From: Geosiphon pyriformis
Taxonomy: Eukaryota > Glomeromycota > Glomeromycetes > Archaeosporales > Geosiphonaceae
Assembly (NCBI GenBank): GCA_016748015.1
Contig: JAAOMT010000766.1
Coordinates: 13,064-77,063 of the forward strand
Length of the DNA: 64,000 nucleotides
Direction: 5' to 3'
Every line of letters begins with the position of its first letter. Within the stretch, counting starts at the first letter, position 1. Under the pieces are notes generated by a model. The model saw nothing but the letters and a program-made list of their open reading frames with translations, ran no database searches and was not told the DNA's origin. The position numbers were made by a program, and so were the translations under genes. This document shows positions 10,938 to 28,401 of the stretch, piece after piece.

Positions 10938-13900
10938 ATTTTATTAATAGTTATAATTAAGAATTATTGTTTTAATATTATTAATAACATTTAAGTAATA
11001 TTATTAAAATTAATAAAAAGTAATTAAATTTTAATAAAACAAGTATAAATTTATAAAATTTGACTTATAAGAATATAAATAATAATTTTATTTTATAAGT
11101 AATATTATAAATCTATTTAAAAAAAACTGAACTCAATTATATAATTTACAATAAGTTGTAAAACAACAAAAACTAAATATAAAAATTGTTTATTAAAAAT
11201 AGCTTTTTTTGATTTATATTTAATTAAGATTTTTAATTAAATTATATTATTATAATTACACTAATTATTAATTTTTTTTTTGTTATTAATTAATTTTAAT
11301 ATTAATTTTTATAACATATATTAAAAATTTTTACATAAAAAGCTGGTTTTTTATTTATTTATAATAATATTATAATAATTTTTAAAATTTTAAATTATTA
11401 ATTCTTAGACTACAATAAAAATTAAGATAAATTGCTAAAATATTTTACTTTTTTTTTATTTAGTTTTTTTGTAAACTATTTTTGTTAATATTTTTTTATT
11501 CATAACAATAGATTTGGTAAACTTTTTTTTTTAATAATTCAAACATAAAAAACTAATATAATATTTATGTCTTTTATAATATAAACTTATAATATTATTT
11601 TAATTGGCTTAAATAATTAATTACATATAAAAAATACATAAATTATATTTATTTTAAAATCTAGTTTAATTATATTATAGTTGTTAAACCAAATAAATAA
11701 AAAAATTAAATATTATTATATTTAATATTATTTAGTATTAATAAATTAAACAAATTTTTTAAGTATAAATTTAAGTTTTAAATAAAAAATTAATTTATAT
11801 TATTTTGTATTTAAACCAATTAATTTTAAATTTTTAAAATATAAAAAAAATATAAAAAAATATAAAAAAATAATATTAATATTTATTAAAATTTATAATT
11901 TAGCACATATAAGATAAATTTAAAAATATTTAAATAATAATTAAAATACAAAGTATTTAAAATATTAACATAAAAATTATAATCAATTTATATATTAAAA
12001 AAAATAAAAAAGCTGTATTTTTTTATTATTTAAAATAATTGGTAATTTTTTTTATTAATAAAGCACTAATAACTATAAAAACTGTTTAATAATACTTTGT
12101 AAAAATACTTTTTTAAAAAAATAGTAGTTAATTAGTTTTTTATTGTTTTAAACTCATTTTTTTTATTTTTAAACAAAAGTTTTTTTTCAAAATTTCTTTA
12201 AAGTAGTTTATTTAGAATAGTTTTAATATGGTTTTTGTTTTTTTTTAAAAGTCTCAAAATATTTAATAAAAAGCCAATAACCAAATTATTTTTTTTGTTT
12301 TTATTATAGTTGTTTAAATAGCAAAAAACAATGTTAAATATTTTTTTTGCTTTGGTTTTTTTGTTTTTTTTTGGCTTTTTAATTAATTTTGTATTATTAG
12401 TATTAATTATAGTATTTAATATTATTGTAATTATAAATAAAAATATTTTTTATATTTTAAATAACAATAAAAATATGTTAACCAATTTTAATTTAAATTA
12501 GTTTTTAGTTATATTTTTTAATATATTAATTTTTAACCAATTTTTATTGGTTTTAAAAACAAAATAAAACATATTTTTATATATTTTTTTAACCAATTAA
12601 CTTATTAAATTATCTGATTTTAAATATTAGATTAACTAAATAAAAACTGAATTAATTATTTTTTTTTGTTTTTTGGTACTGTTTTTAATAATATTTAAAA
12701 AATAATTACAAATTTTTTGAATAAATAGTTTTTATTTTAGTATTTAATACTATTTTTAAGATTAAACTGGTTTTTGTTAATTTTTTATTAAAGTTACTAT
12801 TTGGTTTTATTAAACTTAAATTTATTTTAAAAGACAATATTAAATTGTTTTATATATATTTTGTTTTTAAAAATTTTTTGGCTATTATTATTAAAATTGT
12901 TATTGATAAATTTGTTTTTTTAATTATATTTGAAATTACAAAGTTTTTTGTAATAATTTTTGCTTTTTTTTTTGTTATAAATGTTTTTTATAATGTTATT
13001 TTAATTAAATTAAAGCTTATAAATTTATAATAATATGTTATTGTTTATTTAAAGACTTTTTTTTTGCTATTGTTATTTTTATTTACTAATCTGTATTAAT
13101 TAAAAAAAACAGCATTAAAATTTTTTTTACTTAATCAAAAAAAGTTATTATTGTAAAAAACAATTTTAAAACCAAATTAATTAATTTTTTTTTGATAATA
13201 CAATCTTTAAAATTAATAATCTGATTTTTTAGATTAATAATTGTATATTTTTTACTTTTTTGATTTTTATTGTTATTAATGTTTTATTATTGTAATTTTT
13301 AATTCTTTGGAAATCTTAAATTTTATAGTTTTAAAAACTGGTATTTTATATAAGTATTATATTTAATAAAAAACTTTTGTATATTATTATTGTTAAATTA
13401 TTTAGCCATAAATTATAAAGTCTCTTATTTCTTTTTTTTAAGTTTGTTTTTAAATTTATTAATAGCTTTAAATATTTTAATTTATTATTTATTGGTATAA
13501 AATTTATGTTAAAGTTTTTGTCTTTTTAACTTTTTTTATTGTTGTGTCTTAGATTATTTTAACTGTTAATTTTGTAATTAATTTTAAATTAAATTTTTGC
13601 AATTTTAAATCTTTAATTTGGGTGTGTTGATTAAATTTATAATTAAGTTAATTAGTTTTTTGGTTATTTTGGTTAATTTTTTTTTGGCTAAAAATATACA
13701 CAAAAATTTTAAGATAAAAAAAAATTTAATATATTATTAAAAATTTTAATTAAAAGTAGAATTTGGTAATATAAACAATAATAATTAAGTAATATTAAAA
13801 TTTTTTTTAAGTAATACAATTATTGAATATTTAATAATATTATTATAAATATATAATTTTAATATTAAGTATAATATTAAAAAAATTAAATTGTTTTAAA

Positions 13901-14099: not shown

Positions 14100-14650
14100 A
14101 ATAATATATATTATACTAAAAAACCAAATTAAGATTTTATATAAAAAAATTTTTATAAAGAAAATAAAACAAATTTATATTGTTTTTTTAAATAAAAATT
14201 AGTTATAATTATATATTTAAAATAATTTTTTTTTAAAAACATATTACTTATTAAAATTTAAATTAATACATATAAAATATATTCAAAAATAATTAAACAA
14301 CAGCTAAAATTACATAATATTTAAAATATTAACATAAAAATCTACAATCATTTTATGTTATACCAAAAAATTAAACTAAAATTTTCACAAAATGATTTTT
14401 GTAAAAAAGATAAGACAACTTTGTATTGTTTTTTTAAATAATTTTTATGTAATAATCACATTTAAATACTAAACTCAAACCAGTATGTATAAAGTAGGCC
14501 TAAAATATTTAAATAACAGTATTCAAAATATTAGCATAAAAATTTATATTATGCCAAAAAACTAAATTAAAATTTTTTTATATAAGATGGTTTTTGTCAA
14601 AAAAGGTGAAATTTGTATTGTTTTTCTTAAATAGCTTTTATGTAAAAATT
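14100..14650 (+). repeat. Imperfect tandem repeat, unit about 190-250 bp
   Basis: Three copies of a block 'TATRCYAAAAAAYYAAA...ATTTGTATTGTTTTTTTAAATA...' begin near 14112, 14362 and 14548. The last two also share the upstream motif ATTARCATAAAAATYTA. The third copy is the least A/T-degraded. Confidence 0.5.
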
Positions 14651-15199: not shown

Positions 15200-17952
15200 T
15201 CAAAGAAATTCTTCTAGGGAGAATTCTAATGCAGAACAAGGATACACTAAGGCATAGTTTTCCAAGACTTTAGGATGGAGGATGCCGAAGCTACCGATTT
15301 TACGGTTTATGGTTGATGACTTACGCAAAAAGATATCGGCGGTACGTTTTGGAAAATAGGTGGGATCTAATTAAATAAAATAAAGACAAGTTTAAGTTAT
15401 CTATTCTTTCTAAATAAAAATTTTCTCAAGCATTTGAGGAATTTCCATGGAGTACTTTCCAAACTATAAAACAACAACTTTTACCATGAAAAAGATGGTA
15501 TGTCTGCCTGATTTCCAATTCTTATAATGTGAAACCATGATAAAAAGGTTACTTTTAAGCTTACCTGATGACTCTCTTATAAAATATCCACTCTCATCAC
15601 CGGAAGGATCAACGAGCTTCTCATGAAGCATGTTTAGCAAAAGATTTAAAAGTCCATGAATTACCTATCAAACAAATAAATTACCATCGTAATTTAAAAT
15701 CACACACAGACCCTTAAAAAAAACACAAACCTCAAACCCAGAAGTCTTGTTACAATAAATCGCGCAAACTTTTCTTTCATTCCTGGCCCGTCGTTCTTGT
15801 GAGTCATCTTTATATACAACATCAGAAACTTCGAATAATTTGATAGGCAATGGATGCTTTTTATTTTCTCTCAAGGTCTTTAATACACCTGGTAAAAGAG
15901 AGGTACGAACAACCTGGTATTCAGCAGTTTTTGGATTTGCTAATTTAACAGCAGAGGTTCCGTTGTCCTCCTTATTAAGATATGCAAAATTTTCATCATG
16001 GGAACACTAGTAGATTTGGTAAAATAAATAATAAGATAAAAACTTAAGTTTAATTTGCATTATGGAAGGGTATTATAAAAGAAATCCGTTTTTACCAAAA
16101 TTAACGGTAAAACCTCCGTCCAACCGGCAAGCGCTAATTCTCTTCTCACCAAATCACAGAGTTTATTTATTGGTAAAGCCTTTCCGACTGTTGCACTGCT
16201 TGGGAAGGTCTTTGGAATGTTATTGAAACCATAAGCTATAGCTACGTCTTCCATTATGTCACAAGCATGTAATATGTCAGCTCTTGTAGGTGGAATCTCA
16301 ACTTTAATTTTTTCTTCTTGATCGGATGAAATAATAGCGGAAAGAGACATGCGGTTCAATAGGGAAATTATTTCTTTTCCAGGGAGATTTAATCCAGTAC
16401 AAGCATTGATATAATTAATATTAGCATCCATTACACGTGGTTTAAGGTCTGGATAAACACGTGACGTTCCATCCGGGTATACAACTTGAACTGGTTCAAC
16501 ACTGGATGATAAGAGAATGATACAATTATTGAAAAAGCATTTATGGATTTTCTCTGCGCTTCATTAAAACTTAACTTACGTGAACTTTTCGCTGCAATAC
16601 ACAGAAAACATTGTAACAATTGTATTCAATACAATATTAGCCTTGGTTAAATCTGTTGCGGTACATTCAATTAACACATCCTTGGTGTTCAAAGTAATTT
16701 TTGATCTATCTCCGTTAATTATGGGAGGTAAGGAGCATATGACATGATTTGCATCATAAATCACTGGGTAGACTGGAAAATCACGAATAATGTGAAGGAA
16801 CTTTCCAAGGTGTTTGTCTGTCTATCGTATTGAATAATAAAAGGAAAAATAGGTTATTATTATCACAATGATATGATTTGATCATGATGAGTGTCTCTTA
16901 CTACATTCCTCATAGAGTTTCATTAATTCCTCTCCATTAAAAGATTTTGTTTGATTTAAAGGTGTGAAACAAATTTCCTTGGGTGGTCGTGCTTCATAAG
17001 AAAAGGGTCCCTTTATGGTGGTGAGATCGTGAGTCCCAATCGCAACGAGGGTACGCTTTCTTTGGAAAGACCAAAATTTTTTAATTAATTCAAAAAAAAA
17101 TACATTGATTGTAACCCGAAAAATACCTGCAGATATTATTATGTAATTTTTCTTGCAAATCGATAAAGTTATTGTAAGACCTTTCGGTGAAGCTAATATT
17201 TCTCAAAATAGCCGCGACTACATACGGTCTGATTTGTGCCATCTTTTTTTTAAAAAACAAAATTTCATGTTCAAAAGAAATTTATCGAAAAATTGAGTTA
17301 AATGCCTTATTAATATATTGATTTCGATCATAAATAAGAGATAACGTACCTCCGATCGAATAAAAATTTTTTCCAGTAGTCCATTTTTGGGCTCAACCAC
17401 ATGATACATGGGTGGTTTCGCTTTTTCTTGGAAAATTAATAAGGCACGAGATATCCCTTCTTGACAAAGAAGATCATATCTGGATAAATCATTTTTGAAG
17501 CAATCAACGAAGATGAGTTTCATATCTACAAAATTCTGGATTTCAGGGCGAAACTATTAAACTAACCTATTAGCGGGTATATCAATCTTCAAAATTGCTC
17601 TATCAGAGGTAGACTCGGCTTTGGCGGCGCCGACTTCTTTACTTAAAATTTCTTTTTCAGACGTCTGACTTAGACAAATTGTAGCGAATTATGATTAAAT
17701 TGCTCAAGTTTTGAAGTGGGATTAGGAAATATTTTAACTCACATCTTCCTCTAGTTCTATTCCGAATTCAAAGCATACTTCACGAAATTCTTCTGTAGCT
17801 TATTAAATGAAAGAGAAAAAAGATTGCATAATAGTGATTAAACCAGTCTTTGGAACAATCACCAGACATTTTAACATGAGACCTCGCTTCTTACAATATT
17901 GTTTTCCAAGTGTTTGAAAAAGTACTTCCTTATCAACATTAACAGTGGGCAT
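15200..17952 (-). CDS. FRS1: Phenylalanyl-tRNA synthetase beta subunit, cytosolic (11 exons)
   Basis: Splicing gives 600 residues, close to other eukaryotic PheRS beta chains. Exons read on the minus strand: 17952-17895, 17798-17743, 17664-17567, 17479-17350, 17242-17127, 17059-16902, 16817-16580, 16501-16096, 16006-15731, 15664-15565 and 15366-15200. All introns are GT...AG and phases agree. The start [19 protein letters not shown] is the conserved N-terminus. The B3/4 (editing/tRNA-contact) region comes first, the B5 domain with [18 protein letters not shown] lies near residues 353-370, and the catalytic-like core ([31 protein letters not shown]) follows, ending EEFL. The protein pairs with the alpha subunit to charge tRNA-Phe. 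No damage seen, in contrast to the repeats around it. A 9-residue insertion-like stretch (RKSSTINRK) lies in exon 11. Confidence 0.95.
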
Positions 17953-18182: not shown

Positions 18183-19083
18183 ATGGTCAGAGTATCAGTA
18201 TTGGTATGTATATTAGTGGATTGTACCTTTACAAGAAAGACAAAAATGATTTGCTTATTTGGTTTTGTAATCTGTTAATCTGTATATGTTAGAATGACGC
18301 TCTCAATAACATTGTTAATGCCGAGAAGCGAGGCAAGCGTCAAGTACTTATAAGACCCTCCTCGAAGGTAGTCGTCAAGTTTTTACTCGTAATGCAAAAA
18401 CATGGTAACCTATTTTTCATTTATTACATTAAGTAAAAATAAAAAATACAACTTTTGGGATCGAAGTTATAACTGGATGAAAGTCTTTATTCTTTGGTTG
18501 ACTTTTATTTTTTAATGCTTCGATAGATAAAATTATTGCAATGTACTTACACGCCGTGAACTTATTAATTTATGGGCCCGGCGTTTAATATATTGCTACA
18601 CGACGTTCATTTAAACTCAGAAAAAGCCTGATTTAATATTTTTTCTGCCAAATATAGGTTATATTGGCGAATTTGAGGAAATTGATGATCACCGTTCAGG
18701 AAAAATCGTTATTCAACTTAATGGTCGTCTAAATAAGTGTGGTGTCATCTCACCACGATTTAATGTCAAATTGGAAGATGTTGAAAAGTGGGTCAATAAC
18801 TTGTTACCTTCTCGTCAATTTGGATTCTTGGGTTTGTTTTTCCCTTAATTTTATTGAATCCTTTTTTTGGGCAAAATTTTGTTGATAGTCGAGCTCACTG
18901 AATTAATTTCATTGTAATAGTTTTTACCACCAGTTCCGGTATCATTGACCATCACGAAGCCAGAAGAAAACACACCGGCGGAAAAATTCTTGGTGGGTTC
19001 TTGAATACTCCTACCTTTTAAGCTTTACTTTATTTTGCACACCTTTTTAATAATTAACTATATTTATAGGTTATTTCTATTGA
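18183..19083 (+). CDS. RPS22: 40S ribosomal protein S22 / uS8 (rpS15a), 5 exons
   Basis: Exons 18183-18203, 18293-18404, 18658-18831, 18921-18992 and 19070-19083 join to exactly 130 residues, the universal length of eukaryotic uS8. MVRVSVLNDAL opens the protein; [42 protein letters not shown] and the C-terminal [18 protein letters not shown] are diagnostic. The protein binds the central domain of 18S rRNA in the small subunit. The last exon has only 14 nt including the stop. Reading through intron 4 would instead end in ...GGFLNTPTF, which does not match the family, so the short exon is preferred. Intron 2 (18405-18657) is the longest and carries an H/ACA snoRNA fold. Confidence 0.96.
18458..18603 (+). 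ncRNA. Intronic H/ACA snoRNA, snR44-like
   Basis: Hairpin 1: lower stem ATCGAAG/CTTCGAT (18460-18466 with 18518-18524) and upper stem 18475-18485 with 18500-18510, including G-U pairs. Its pocket strands are ATAACT (18469-18474) and TTTAATG (18511-18517). The hinge AGATAA (18525-18530) fits box H. Hairpin 2: lower stem GCAATGTA/TATATTGC (18538-18545 with 18589-18596) and upper stem CGCCG/CGGCG. Its pocket strands are CTTACA (18546-18551) and TTTAA (18584-18588). Box ACA is at 18598-18600. Each upper stem ends 14 nt before its box, the standard spacing. Pocket 1 pairs with 18S CAUUAAA-U-C-AGUUAU (yeast U106). Pocket 2 pairs with 25S UUAAA-U-A-UGUAAG (yeast U1110). Yeast snR44 lies in an RPS22B intron and modifies 18S U106. 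Targets are from remembered rRNA sequences. Confidence 0.85.
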
Positions 19084-19240: not shown

Positions 19241-21039
19241 TCAATGCGTTTGCAAATCTTCCAAATACCCAGGAATTTCCTCAACCCCCATATTAATTAT
19301 ATCTTCCAAGGCTTGCTCGATAATTTTTACACCTTCCAATAACTCATCTTCACTAATACAAAGAGGTGGAGCCAAACGAATGATATTATTATGGGTTGGC
19401 TTAGCCAATAAACCCCTACTTTTGAGCAGCAAGCATAGCTGCCAGGCGGTTTTCTCAAACTTTGTTTCATCAATAACAATTGCGTTTAATAGACCACGTC
19501 CTCGAACAATTTTCAAAAGAGGTGAGTTAATCTGGCTAAGAGCTGAACGAAACCTTTCTCCAAGAAGTGCAGATTTTTCAACAAGTCCCTCGTCCCTAAT
19601 AACCTCTAGCGCTGCAATGGCAACGGCACAACCCAGTGGATTTCCGCCAAATGTTGAGCCATGTTCTCCGGGTTGAATTGATAACATAATTTCCTTATCA
19701 GCCAAAACAGCTGATACTGGATATACACCACCTGATAAAGCCTTGCCGAGTAGAAGGATGTCAGGACGTACATTTTCATGTTCGCAACAGATCATCTTGC
19801 CCGTACGTCCAAGACCAGTTTGAATTTCATCGGCAATGAACAGAACATTATGTTGTTTGCAAAGGTCGTAACATTTTTTTAAATATCCTTCATCTGGGAT
19901 ATTTATGCTATAAACATGAAATTCAACGAATACGATATAAATTATGAAAGAGCTTTGATTGAGCACGAAATATTACTTCATTATAAGAGAAATAGCCTAC
20001 CCTGCCTCCCCTTGAATGGGTTCGATCAAGAATCCGGCCACATGTTTTCCGTGAGCATTCAGAGCATCTTCTAAATCTTTCACAGAATTGTAGTGTAAGG
20101 TGCCACCACCTGCTGGACAAATTGCTCCGGAATTTGGAAGGTAAGGACCGAACCCTCTTCTTGAATCCGGATCAGTGGACAGGGAGATGATGGCGGTGGT
20201 GCGACCATGAAAATTATTGGTACAACAGAGGATAATACCTTGGTTATCGGGAATGCCTTTCTTCAAATACCCCCATTTACGAGCCAATTTGATCCCGGTT
20301 TCCACTGCCTCCGCACCAGTGTTCATTGGCAGAACCATCTCATATCCAAAGCACTAATAAATGGGAATAAAGAACAAACAAGCTTAAAGAGCTATTACAT
20401 AATATTTGATAATATCGTCAACGTTTGAAAATCGAGAAACTACCCCTGCTGTCTCGAATCCAAGTTAACTTTTGATTTTATTGCATTGTATTATACTATA
20501 ATGTTCATTGTAACCAATTTTACAAAATCTTTTTTAGTATTTAATTTGACCTCAAAATTACCCAATTATATAAAAGGTTGAATTTTGATTTCATTTTCCT
20601 TCAAAACTATATTTACTATTTTTTTTGGATAAAACTGTATTTACCTCAGTTATATATTTAGCATACCTCCCAAAAACCTCATTGTGAAAGGCCCTTGAGC
20701 TTATGCAAAGTTTTTGAGCTTGAGCACATAACTCCCTTACGATCTTTGGGTGACAATGCCCCTGATTGAGGCTGGAATAACCCGAAAGAAAGTCAAGATA
20801 TTTATTTCCTTCAGGATCCCATATATGAACGCCTTGACCTTTGGAGAATACCACGGGAAGAGGATGATAACTAATCAAATCAATATATAAATATATATGC
20901 TGTATATTAGTGTCAAATAATAACAAGTATTTGGCACCACGAATAACTATATTAGAAGGTCTTACTTGTGAGCCCCATGTTTCCTATCCAAATTAATGCA
21001 ATCTTGAGAACTCAAGGGCGTATTATTATTCAAAGCCAT
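19241..21039 (-). CDS. CAR2: Ornithine aminotransferase (4 exons)
   Basis: Exons on the minus strand 21039-20966, 20870-20645, 20353-20001 and 19907-19241 join to 439 residues, the usual size for fungal OAT. It transfers the delta-amino group of ornithine to 2-oxoglutarate, giving glutamate semialdehyde for proline synthesis and arginine catabolism. Class III PLP aminotransferase marks: [18 protein letters not shown] near 110-127, the cofactor Asp in [15 protein letters not shown] (Asp near 244), the Schiff-base lysine in [11 protein letters not shown] (Lys near 273), and [17 protein letters not shown]. The start [18 protein letters not shown] is the first ATG and no targeting peptide is evident, so a cytosolic enzyme is likely. 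All introns are GT...AG. No damage seen. Confidence 0.95.
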
Positions 21040-26569: not shown

Positions 26570-27464
26570 GTATGAGTTGTGGGTAGATGTTTTTAATATT
26601 TATACAAATAACTTCTTAAGATAGTTGGGTATATTAGAAGCTATTAGAGAAGTGACAGCCTATTTTTCAGATGTTGAAATGAATATGGGTGTTAAGATTT
26701 ATGGGTTGTTATTTTCTACATTAATTAAATTTCAAGCTGTTGTTTTGGCTTTAAAGTGTGTTTTTTTGGCCTGTTCTGTGGCTGTGCACTTGGACAATTA
26801 AACAGCATTAAATACATGTGTTGTAGAGCTTGTGCTTTGTTAGCCAAATTTTCATAATAAATGCTGGATAAAAAGATGTTATATTACAGATTTAGTAAAA
26901 TTTAAGAATATTTTTGTTAAATAAATAAAGATCAAAAATTATTTAGGAGTTGCTAATAATAAAAAAGCTAATGTTTTTGCATGTAAAGTGATGTATTCTG
27001 GTTTGTTTCTTCTTATAGAGATTTATAAAAAATTTATCATTACTAATAATCAGATTGTATCAAGAAATGCTTGTTGTTTTGTTTGAAATATTTATTGGTC
27101 TATATGTTGTGTTTAATAAGAGACTGGTCTTGGTATTGGGTTTACAAATGAGTTGATAATTATAAACATTAATTGGATTAATACTACTGCAATATAGCAT
27201 CCAGATTTGCATATGTTGGCTGAGTTTACAAACAAAGCTTCTGTCACTTTTTGCACTTATTTAATAAAAGCAGTTTATAGGAGACTGCTGATTGCTGTAA
27301 GAAAAAAATTTTATGACAAGAAGTATCTGAACATATTATGCCTGTCTTGTGGCAATATTAAACTGCCCAATCATGTTTTTACTTGTTTAAAGAAAGCTGA
27401 TATACATGTTAATATTTTGTTGAGTTATATTGTATTATGGAAATCTTTAGTAAATAGTTACTAT
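26570..27464 (+). pseudogene. LINE 2 RNase H and C-terminal Cys/His motif
   Basis: VYTNNFLR*LGILEAI (expected YTDGS), STLIKFQAVVLALK and KNYLGVANNKKANVFA (expected KGHSG..GNE.AD) mark RNase H. After it, CLSCGNIKLPNHVFTC (near 27340-27390) gives a C-x2-C-x7-H-x3-C motif. The frame runs into the LTR at 27465. Confidence 0.7.
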
Positions 27465-28401
27465 TGTTATAGGTAATTATTTGGGATCTGAAAACAAATA
27501 ACAAATCCATAACTTGGTGCTTAATAAGTAATATGGTTGGTAATATCCAAAAGTTTTTGTAATCTAAAGGTTTTATATCTGAAAGTTTTGGTGAAGTTTT
27601 TTGTATAATGAACAGAGATTCACTAGTTGTGTTAGTAGTCTCTCAAAATTACAATTCCATTGAATTTTTTTTTTAGCATAATGACTGATTTATTTTAGTA
27701 GTCATGCTCTTCTGGTAAGCTTATTCATAAATTTTTTAAACTCTATACCCTTTCTTTAGAATCTTTTACTAAACTATCTTTAACATCAGTTATTTAATGC
27801 TTAATCTTTTTTTTATTCAGTTAGTAAATTAACAAATAACAAAAATATAAAAAAATATAAAAAAATATAAAAAAAAATAAACAAAATTAAAGAAAAAAAT
27901 AAAATAAAATAAAAATTAGTCTTTTGTCAATAGCCATAATTAAGAGCTATTAATCTAGTATAGTTAAGTATTGGCAATTATCAATATGAATTTTTGATAA
28001 CAAAAAGATAGATTGTGATAATAATAAATATTTTTATTGATATTTGATGTTTCTATTTCAAGTTATAGAATATTATCATATAAAGAAATAAATATGGAAT
28101 TAAAATTAAAGGTTCTAAACTAAGAATTCTGTCTTTTCTGTTTCTAATACTATTGTTATATATACATAAATTTTATTTTACAAAATTCCTTAAATTCCTT
28201 AATTTTTTAATCAAAAATTTTGGAATTCCTTAAAAAGAATTCTGAAATTCTGAGATTTTGCAATTCCTCATACAGAAATTTTATAATTCTGAAATCCTGC
28301 AATTTTTTTAAGAGGAATTCTAAAATTTCATTTTTACTATGTCTTATTCTGATTGATTAACTGATGTACTAATATATAATTTTTATATTCTATAAGTAAT
28401 A
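27465..28401 (-). repeat. Family A 3' LTR of element E3
   Basis: It starts TGTTATAGG within LINE 2 and ends ...CTATAAGTAATA (expected AACA). It shares GGTGCTTAA, the A-rich AATATAAAAAAA stretch near 27850, TATATATACATAA near 28150 and the GGAATTCC-type repeats with the other family A LTRs. It is more mutated than the LTRs of E1 and E2. Confidence 0.85.

Follow-up and report, generated by a model that had tools for sequence, protein, structure and literature searches.

A predicted snR44-type H/ACA snoRNA in an RPS22 intron of Geosiphon pyriformis, with pockets matching both known snR44 target sites

Geosiphon pyriformis is a soil fungus of the early-diverging Glomeromycotina. Its RPS22 (uS8) locus, which we analyzed within a 64-kb stretch of DNA (the window; part of contig C84 in a 124.7-Mb assembly), raises the question of whether the second intron of this gene encodes an H/ACA snoRNA and, if so, whether that RNA is snR44 with the two targets it has in yeast or a relative whose 3' hairpin was turned toward a different 25S uridine. 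A preliminary description had proposed the latter, namely an snR44-like H/ACA snoRNA that kept its host gene and its 18S target while the second hairpin was reassigned. Our analysis suggests that the RNA is very probably an snR44 ortholog that would guide 18S U105 and the equivalent of 25S U1056, and that a step of target reassignment is unnecessary.

Five coding exons splice into a frame of 130 aa (MVRVSVL...LGYFY*), which is identical in all letters to the G. pyriformis protein G9A89_001120 (Table 1). The four introns (89, 253, 89 and 77 nt) run from GT to AG in every case, and intron 2 interrupts the coding sequence after nt 133, in phase 1 within codon 45, a position that we take to be that of the yeast RPS22B intron as well. 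A single RPS22 gene was found in the assembly (three exon matches, all at the same locus), and a single copy of intron 2. The spliced reading frame also bears out the earlier placement of the RNA inside this intron. Two neighbouring frames on the reverse strand resemble, on a reading of their translations, phenylalanyl-tRNA synthetase beta (16060-16431) and ornithine aminotransferase (19241-20926).

Table 1. Features of the RPS22 gene and of the snoRNA predicted in its second intron, numbered from the first nucleotide of the 64-kb window.
Feature	Position	Strand	Basis or detail
RPS22 (uS8) gene	18183-19083	+	Spliced reading frame, protein identity
RPS22 coding exons	18183-18203, 18293-18404, 18658-18831, 18921-18992, 19070-19083	+	
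RPS22 intron 2, 253 nt, GT...AG	18405-18657	+	Reading frame, splice-site letters
Predicted snR44-type H/ACA snoRNA, ~146 nt	18458-18603	+	Fold, finder, boxes; both ends predicted
5' hairpin	18460-18524	+	Lower stem 18460-18466/18518-18524, upper stem 18475-18485/18500-18510
5' pocket, 5' guide UUAUAACU	18467-18474	+	Pairs with AGUUAUA(G) of 18S
5' pocket, 3' guide UUUAAUG	18511-18517	+	Pairs with CAUUAAA of 18S
H box AGATAA	18525-18530	+	14 nt past upper stem
3' hairpin	18538-18596	+	Lower stem 18538-18545/18589-18596, upper stem 18552-18556/18579-18583
3' pocket, 5' guide CUUACA	18546-18551	+	Pairs with UGUAAG of fungal 25S
3' pocket, 3' guide UUUAA	18584-18588	+	Pairs with UUAAA of 25S
ACA box	18598-18600	+	14 nt past upper stem, 3 nt from predicted 3' end

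Within the intron, the predicted RNA forms the two pocketed hairpins of the H/ACA class, the pocket of the second being partly closed by extra pairs in the free MFE structure. In the canonical form the lower stems have 7 and 8 pairs and the upper stems 11 and 5, and all 31 of these pairs are standard (four are G-U). The hinge fits ANANNA, the ACA box stands at the usual distance from the predicted 3' end, and both pocket-to-box distances fall within the 14-16 nt of the class. The hairpins, boxes and spacings had been noted before and are confirmed. The fold of the 146-nt RNA has an energy of -41 kcal/mol (z -4.94), compared with -23.8 +/- 3.5 for shuffled versions, 0/200 of which were equally good; the form with an open 3' pocket is about 10 kcal/mol weaker (-30.9, from the 31 stem pairs only, vs -41.0). 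Gaps of 53 and 54 nt separate the predicted ends from the 5' and 3' splice sites, respectively; for Neurospora, the cited passage gives most intronic C/D snoRNAs a distance of 41-60 nt to their 5' splice site (PMC2780460). Between the predicted snoRNA and the 3' splice site there is also an AT-rich hairpin, CAGAAAAAG...TTTTTTCTG (18616-18657, -4.7 kcal/mol), the loop of which contains CTGAT, possibly the branch site.

How often such anatomy arises by chance was estimated with simple H/ACA finder criteria (two pocketed hairpins, ANANNA, ACA), the thresholds of which were set with the candidate in view. Dinucleotide-shuffled versions of intron 2 showed the anatomy in 6 of 4000 cases. Over the whole window the finder returned three loci on the forward strand and four on the reverse, compared with 0.875 loci per strand in 40 shuffled forward strands (0 to 3 each); the window exceeds its own shuffled null for H/ACA anatomy. 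Since anatomy-only loci are not rare in shuffled windows, anatomy alone is weak evidence on a genome-wide scale. The locus in RPS22 intron 2 is the strongest by energy, at -0.288 kcal/nt, the best of the 35 null loci reaching -0.218. The six other finder loci (12380-12561 and 14117-14299 on the forward strand; 27384-27513, 14181-14309, 12098-12266 and 11568-11700 on the reverse) fold weakly, at -0.13 kcal/nt or weaker, like the null loci.

The 5' pocket was compared with the fungus's own 18S rRNA, of which the assembly yielded a single full copy (L008; 1654 bits to RF01960). This copy contains CAUUAAA-U-C-AGUUAUA, with which the 5' (H) hairpin forms 7+7 Watson-Crick pairs and one G-U pair; the 18S site named in the preliminary description is therefore confirmed on the fungus's own rRNA, with better pairing than the 7+6 then claimed. 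The next best site for this pocket on the same 18S, among sites with at least three pairs on each side, offers 6 pairs. When shuffled pockets were run against the own 18S and a 4-kb protist LSU, 0/3000 reached 13 Watson-Crick pairs and 2/3000 reached 12. A genome search with the guide-complement pattern returned four sites, comprising the 18S and three that are not rRNA, with one site for the reversed control.

The matched uridine is nucleotide 105 of the Geosiphon 18S. With the number 106 its surroundings agree with yeast Am100, Psi106 and Psi120, while Am28 fits at 105, and the Geosiphon 18S behaves as if it were one base shorter upstream of this uridine. All four sites are matched, by chance, under the numberings 94 and 87, and the four-site check is not decisive by itself; the assignment to yeast U106 combines how far the uridine lies from the 5' end, the conserved letters CAUUAAAUCAG, which we take to be those at the yeast site, and the Neurospora site number 105. 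The 18S copy (L008 6682-8498, reverse strand; G000:C320) is low in CpG, with an observed/expected ratio of 0.54 compared with 0.83 and 1.02 for two protist 18S sequences, and carries changes of the C-to-T or G-to-A type, for example GCCACGG for GCCGCGG, at positions that are presumably universal. One possibility is that this rDNA copy is in decay or has mutated through methylation.

For the large subunit, a search for rDNA copies in the assembly gave one full copy and four short fragments, and the full unit, the only one found, has a gap of 5000 N after the 5.8S, where the 25S should be. A 25S pattern with up to one mismatch matched the Geosiphon assembly at one site, as did its reversed control; this site (L009 1501-1518, G000:C114:475504) is an exact 18-mer, CTTTAAATATGTAAGAAG, followed by CTCTTGTTTACTT, in AT-rich DNA, and would be either a decayed 25S fragment or a chance match. 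A probe taken to represent yeast 25S, run with no control, gave no match in the assembly, which is uninformative by itself. Two exact 25S patterns had no match in viral contigs, nor did the first in genome contigs, where the second was found at 15 loci. Seven of these were scanned with Rfam and all hold eukaryotic LSU, with a text match near the site in three of the seven. Three of the 15 loci served as LSU in the pocket scans (one in the null) and one for the Rfam LSU consensus.

The fungal 25S letters that we used are those of basidiomycete 28S sequences printed in PMC12287172, in which 4/4 passages contain the site, as they must, given the search word. On these letters every base of the 3' pocket guides (CUUACA / UUUAA) finds its complement in UUAAA-U-A-UGUAAG, with 6+5 Watson-Crick pairs, the wider site reading CUUUAAA-U-A-UGUAAG; the complementarity of the 3' (ACA) hairpin to the 25S U1056 site, and with it the 5+6 pairing proposed earlier, is thus found on fungal 28S text. 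Arithmetically, a full Watson-Crick match is one of 6930 orders of the 11 pocket letters, and 5/3000 shuffled pockets reached 11 pairs somewhere. The Rfam eukaryotic LSU consensus reads UUUAAAUGGGUAAG at the site, which breaks 1/11 guide pairs, and a protist LSU reads UUUAAAUAUGCAAA. On non-fungal LSUs and on the own 18S the pocket finds weaker partners, with up to 9 and 8 pairs, respectively (G-U allowed).

The identity of this 25S uridine bears directly on the claim of reassignment. We compared a stretch containing the site uridine, in letters taken to be those of yeast 25S, with rows of the published yeast modification table (PMC8307265, Table 1). On this assumed yeast stretch, numbering 1056 gives the right base at 22/22 published Psi/Nm positions between 25S 649 and 1133, with 55% (11/20) for the runner-up among 450 numberings; m1A645, omitted from the 22-site test, fits as well. 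On the basidiomycete 28S passages (PMC12287172), the same numbering gives 12/12 sites on three of the four printed sequences. On the fourth it gives 8/12 and ties with 1057, while numbering 1000 has a higher fraction (7/9); this sequence is probably one base longer in helix 38. Along the Rfam LSU consensus the uridine is spaced 76 from the Am1133 site, compared with a published 77 for 1056 and 23 for 1110, and 97 from the Psi960 site, compared with a published 96 for 1056. Numbering 1110 was tried and rejected: it fits at most 2/8 sites on any of the four basidiomycete sequences, and only 5/11 in-range sites fit it, with no shift of up to 25 giving a fit and a wider range leading to 1056.

The preliminary description held that the 3' hairpin had been turned from U1056 to U1110, which in yeast belongs to snR82. 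The sequence match behind it is real, but only the site number it gave speaks for U1110, and we leave it next to no probability, since the letters matched are those around U1056. At the true yeast U1110 site, which we take to be GAGCUU-U-UAGUGG, the 3' guide forms 0/5 pairs and the 5' guide 5/6 (G-U allowed), and the complementarity on both sides that marks an snR82-type U1110 guide is absent. In yeast, snR44 already has U1056 as its second target; hence there is no reassignment, and the claimed target switch is a slip in numbering. The guide assignments given along with it (snR44 for U106 and U1056, snR82 for U1110) agree with the rows of the published table (PMC8307265).

Whether the RNA is snR44 by descent is a separate matter. 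Rfam gave 0 matches at gathering score in the 64-kb window and, in the intron and up to E 10, three hits (E 3.8 to 7.8), none of them to an H/ACA family or to snR44. Rfam presumably contains an snR44 family; this negative comes from the general scan of all families. Sequence homology to yeast snR44 is thus without support from the Rfam search, and at such a distance we did not regard a covariance-model match, absent here, as essential. Two other models were set aside: that of snR43 scored twice below threshold (E 1.8 and 3.2) and also matches in 2/14 control genomes, and that of snR31 gave no match and matches in 5/14 control genomes. The lack of a sequence-level match to Rfam snR44 would fit an H/ACA RNA with both targets that arose in RPS22, or moved into it, independently, and snoRNAs are known to move between genome places, as a passage of PMC8476143 describes. 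Yet the host gene is the one known from yeasts, both targets agree and the hairpins are ordered as in the Neurospora RNA, and we consider such convergence unlikely; both pockets matching snR44 sites, together with the RPS22 host and the Neurospora order, are most simply read as one gene by descent. It is also conceivable, at a very low probability, that the intron is structured by chance or that its structure acts only on RPS22 expression, the pockets being accidental. A hairpin in an RPS22B intron of yeast favours breakdown of the pre-mRNA that carries it via Rnt1p, according to the cited passage of PMC4937481, and H/ACA-like anatomy occurs by chance about 0.9 times per 64-kb strand; against this stand the rarity of the anatomy among shuffled introns and two pockets that hit exactly both snR44 sites. 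Equally improbable is a decayed, non-working snR44 copy with an active gene elsewhere, which has no direct support; on the other side, every stem pair is standard, both pockets match in full, and the intron and RPS22 were each found in one copy.

Under the preferred reading, as an snR44 ortholog, we can propose how the RNA would work. The intron, boxes, stems, spacing, pairing to the own 18S and to the 25S of other fungi, and 25S numbering are direct readings, and the steps from here on follow the H/ACA class by analogy. After splicing, an RNA of ~146 nt would be released from RPS22 intron 2, the debranched intron presumably being trimmed by exonuclease, and would be bound by Cbf5/dyskerin, Nhp2, Nop10 and Gar1. 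Its 5' hairpin would direct the conversion of 18S U105 (yeast U106) to pseudouridine, and its 3' hairpin that of the 25S uridine equivalent to yeast U1056, where the Geosiphon 25S would be expected to read UUAAAUAUGUAAG.

It is likely that snR44, its place in the RPS22 intron, its hairpin order and both of its targets have been kept since the common ancestor of Dikarya and Glomeromycotina. Of the first suggestion, the H/ACA class, the RPS22 host, the likeness to snR44 and the 18S U106 target are supported, and the part concerning a reassigned 3' hairpin falls away. If true, this would be among the deepest fixed sets of guide RNA, host and target in fungi; it would make the arrangement as old as the ancestor of Dikarya and Mucoromycota and would tie a small-subunit protein gene to the modification of both subunits. 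A false claim of target switching is removed, with the opposite, very deep stability, in its place, and Geosiphon gains an annotation, together with two predicted pseudouridines that lend themselves to direct testing. 'The fungal snoRNAome' may already list snR44 in Mucoromycota. Among the snR44 titles that we searched, with the main fungal survey outside that scope, none was on Glomeromycotina, and a search pairing Geosiphon with snoRNA gave one study, on a smut fungus.

The Geosiphon RNA resembles yeast snR44 in its RPS22 host, in its position in an intron inside the coding sequence, as in yeasts, and in the predicted targets 18S U106 and 25S U1056. It differs in its length, ~146 nt compared with ~211 nt for snR44 of Saccharomyces cerevisiae, and in being without a covariance-model match. 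In the passages cited, snR44 guides 18S-106 and 25S-1056 (PMC8307265); its place in yeast is an intron within the coding sequence of RPS22B (PMC9068511), and three Candida species and Lodderomyces have it in introns of their RPS22A ortholog (PMC5033589). It is reported from Saccharomycotina and Pezizomycotina (PMC4937481), appears among the putative intronic snoRNAs of Fusarium, and is also named in PMC9606315, PMC2653536 and PMC4202332. With snR82, which guides 25S U1110, U2349 and U2351, the likeness is one of H/ACA class only, U1110 being unmatched by the Geosiphon RNA. The animal RNAs ACA36, ACA50 and ACA62, as far as their descriptions go, share one pocket for 18S-105, and a chicken RNA listed beside ACA50/62 is unlike the Geosiphon RNA in having 18S-34 as the target of its other pocket and CNOT1 as its host. 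Comparable in length, in lying in an intron and in pocket targets, as described in the cited part of PMC2780460, is Neurospora crassa ACA1, an intronic RNA of 136 nt listed as a homolog of snR44, whose H pocket serves 18S-105 and whose ACA pocket serves 26S-1037. There the interval between the sites of the snR5 and snR44 homologs, 1105-1037, equals the yeast interval 1124-1056, and the hairpins stand in the same order, with the same targets, as in the RNA predicted for Geosiphon.
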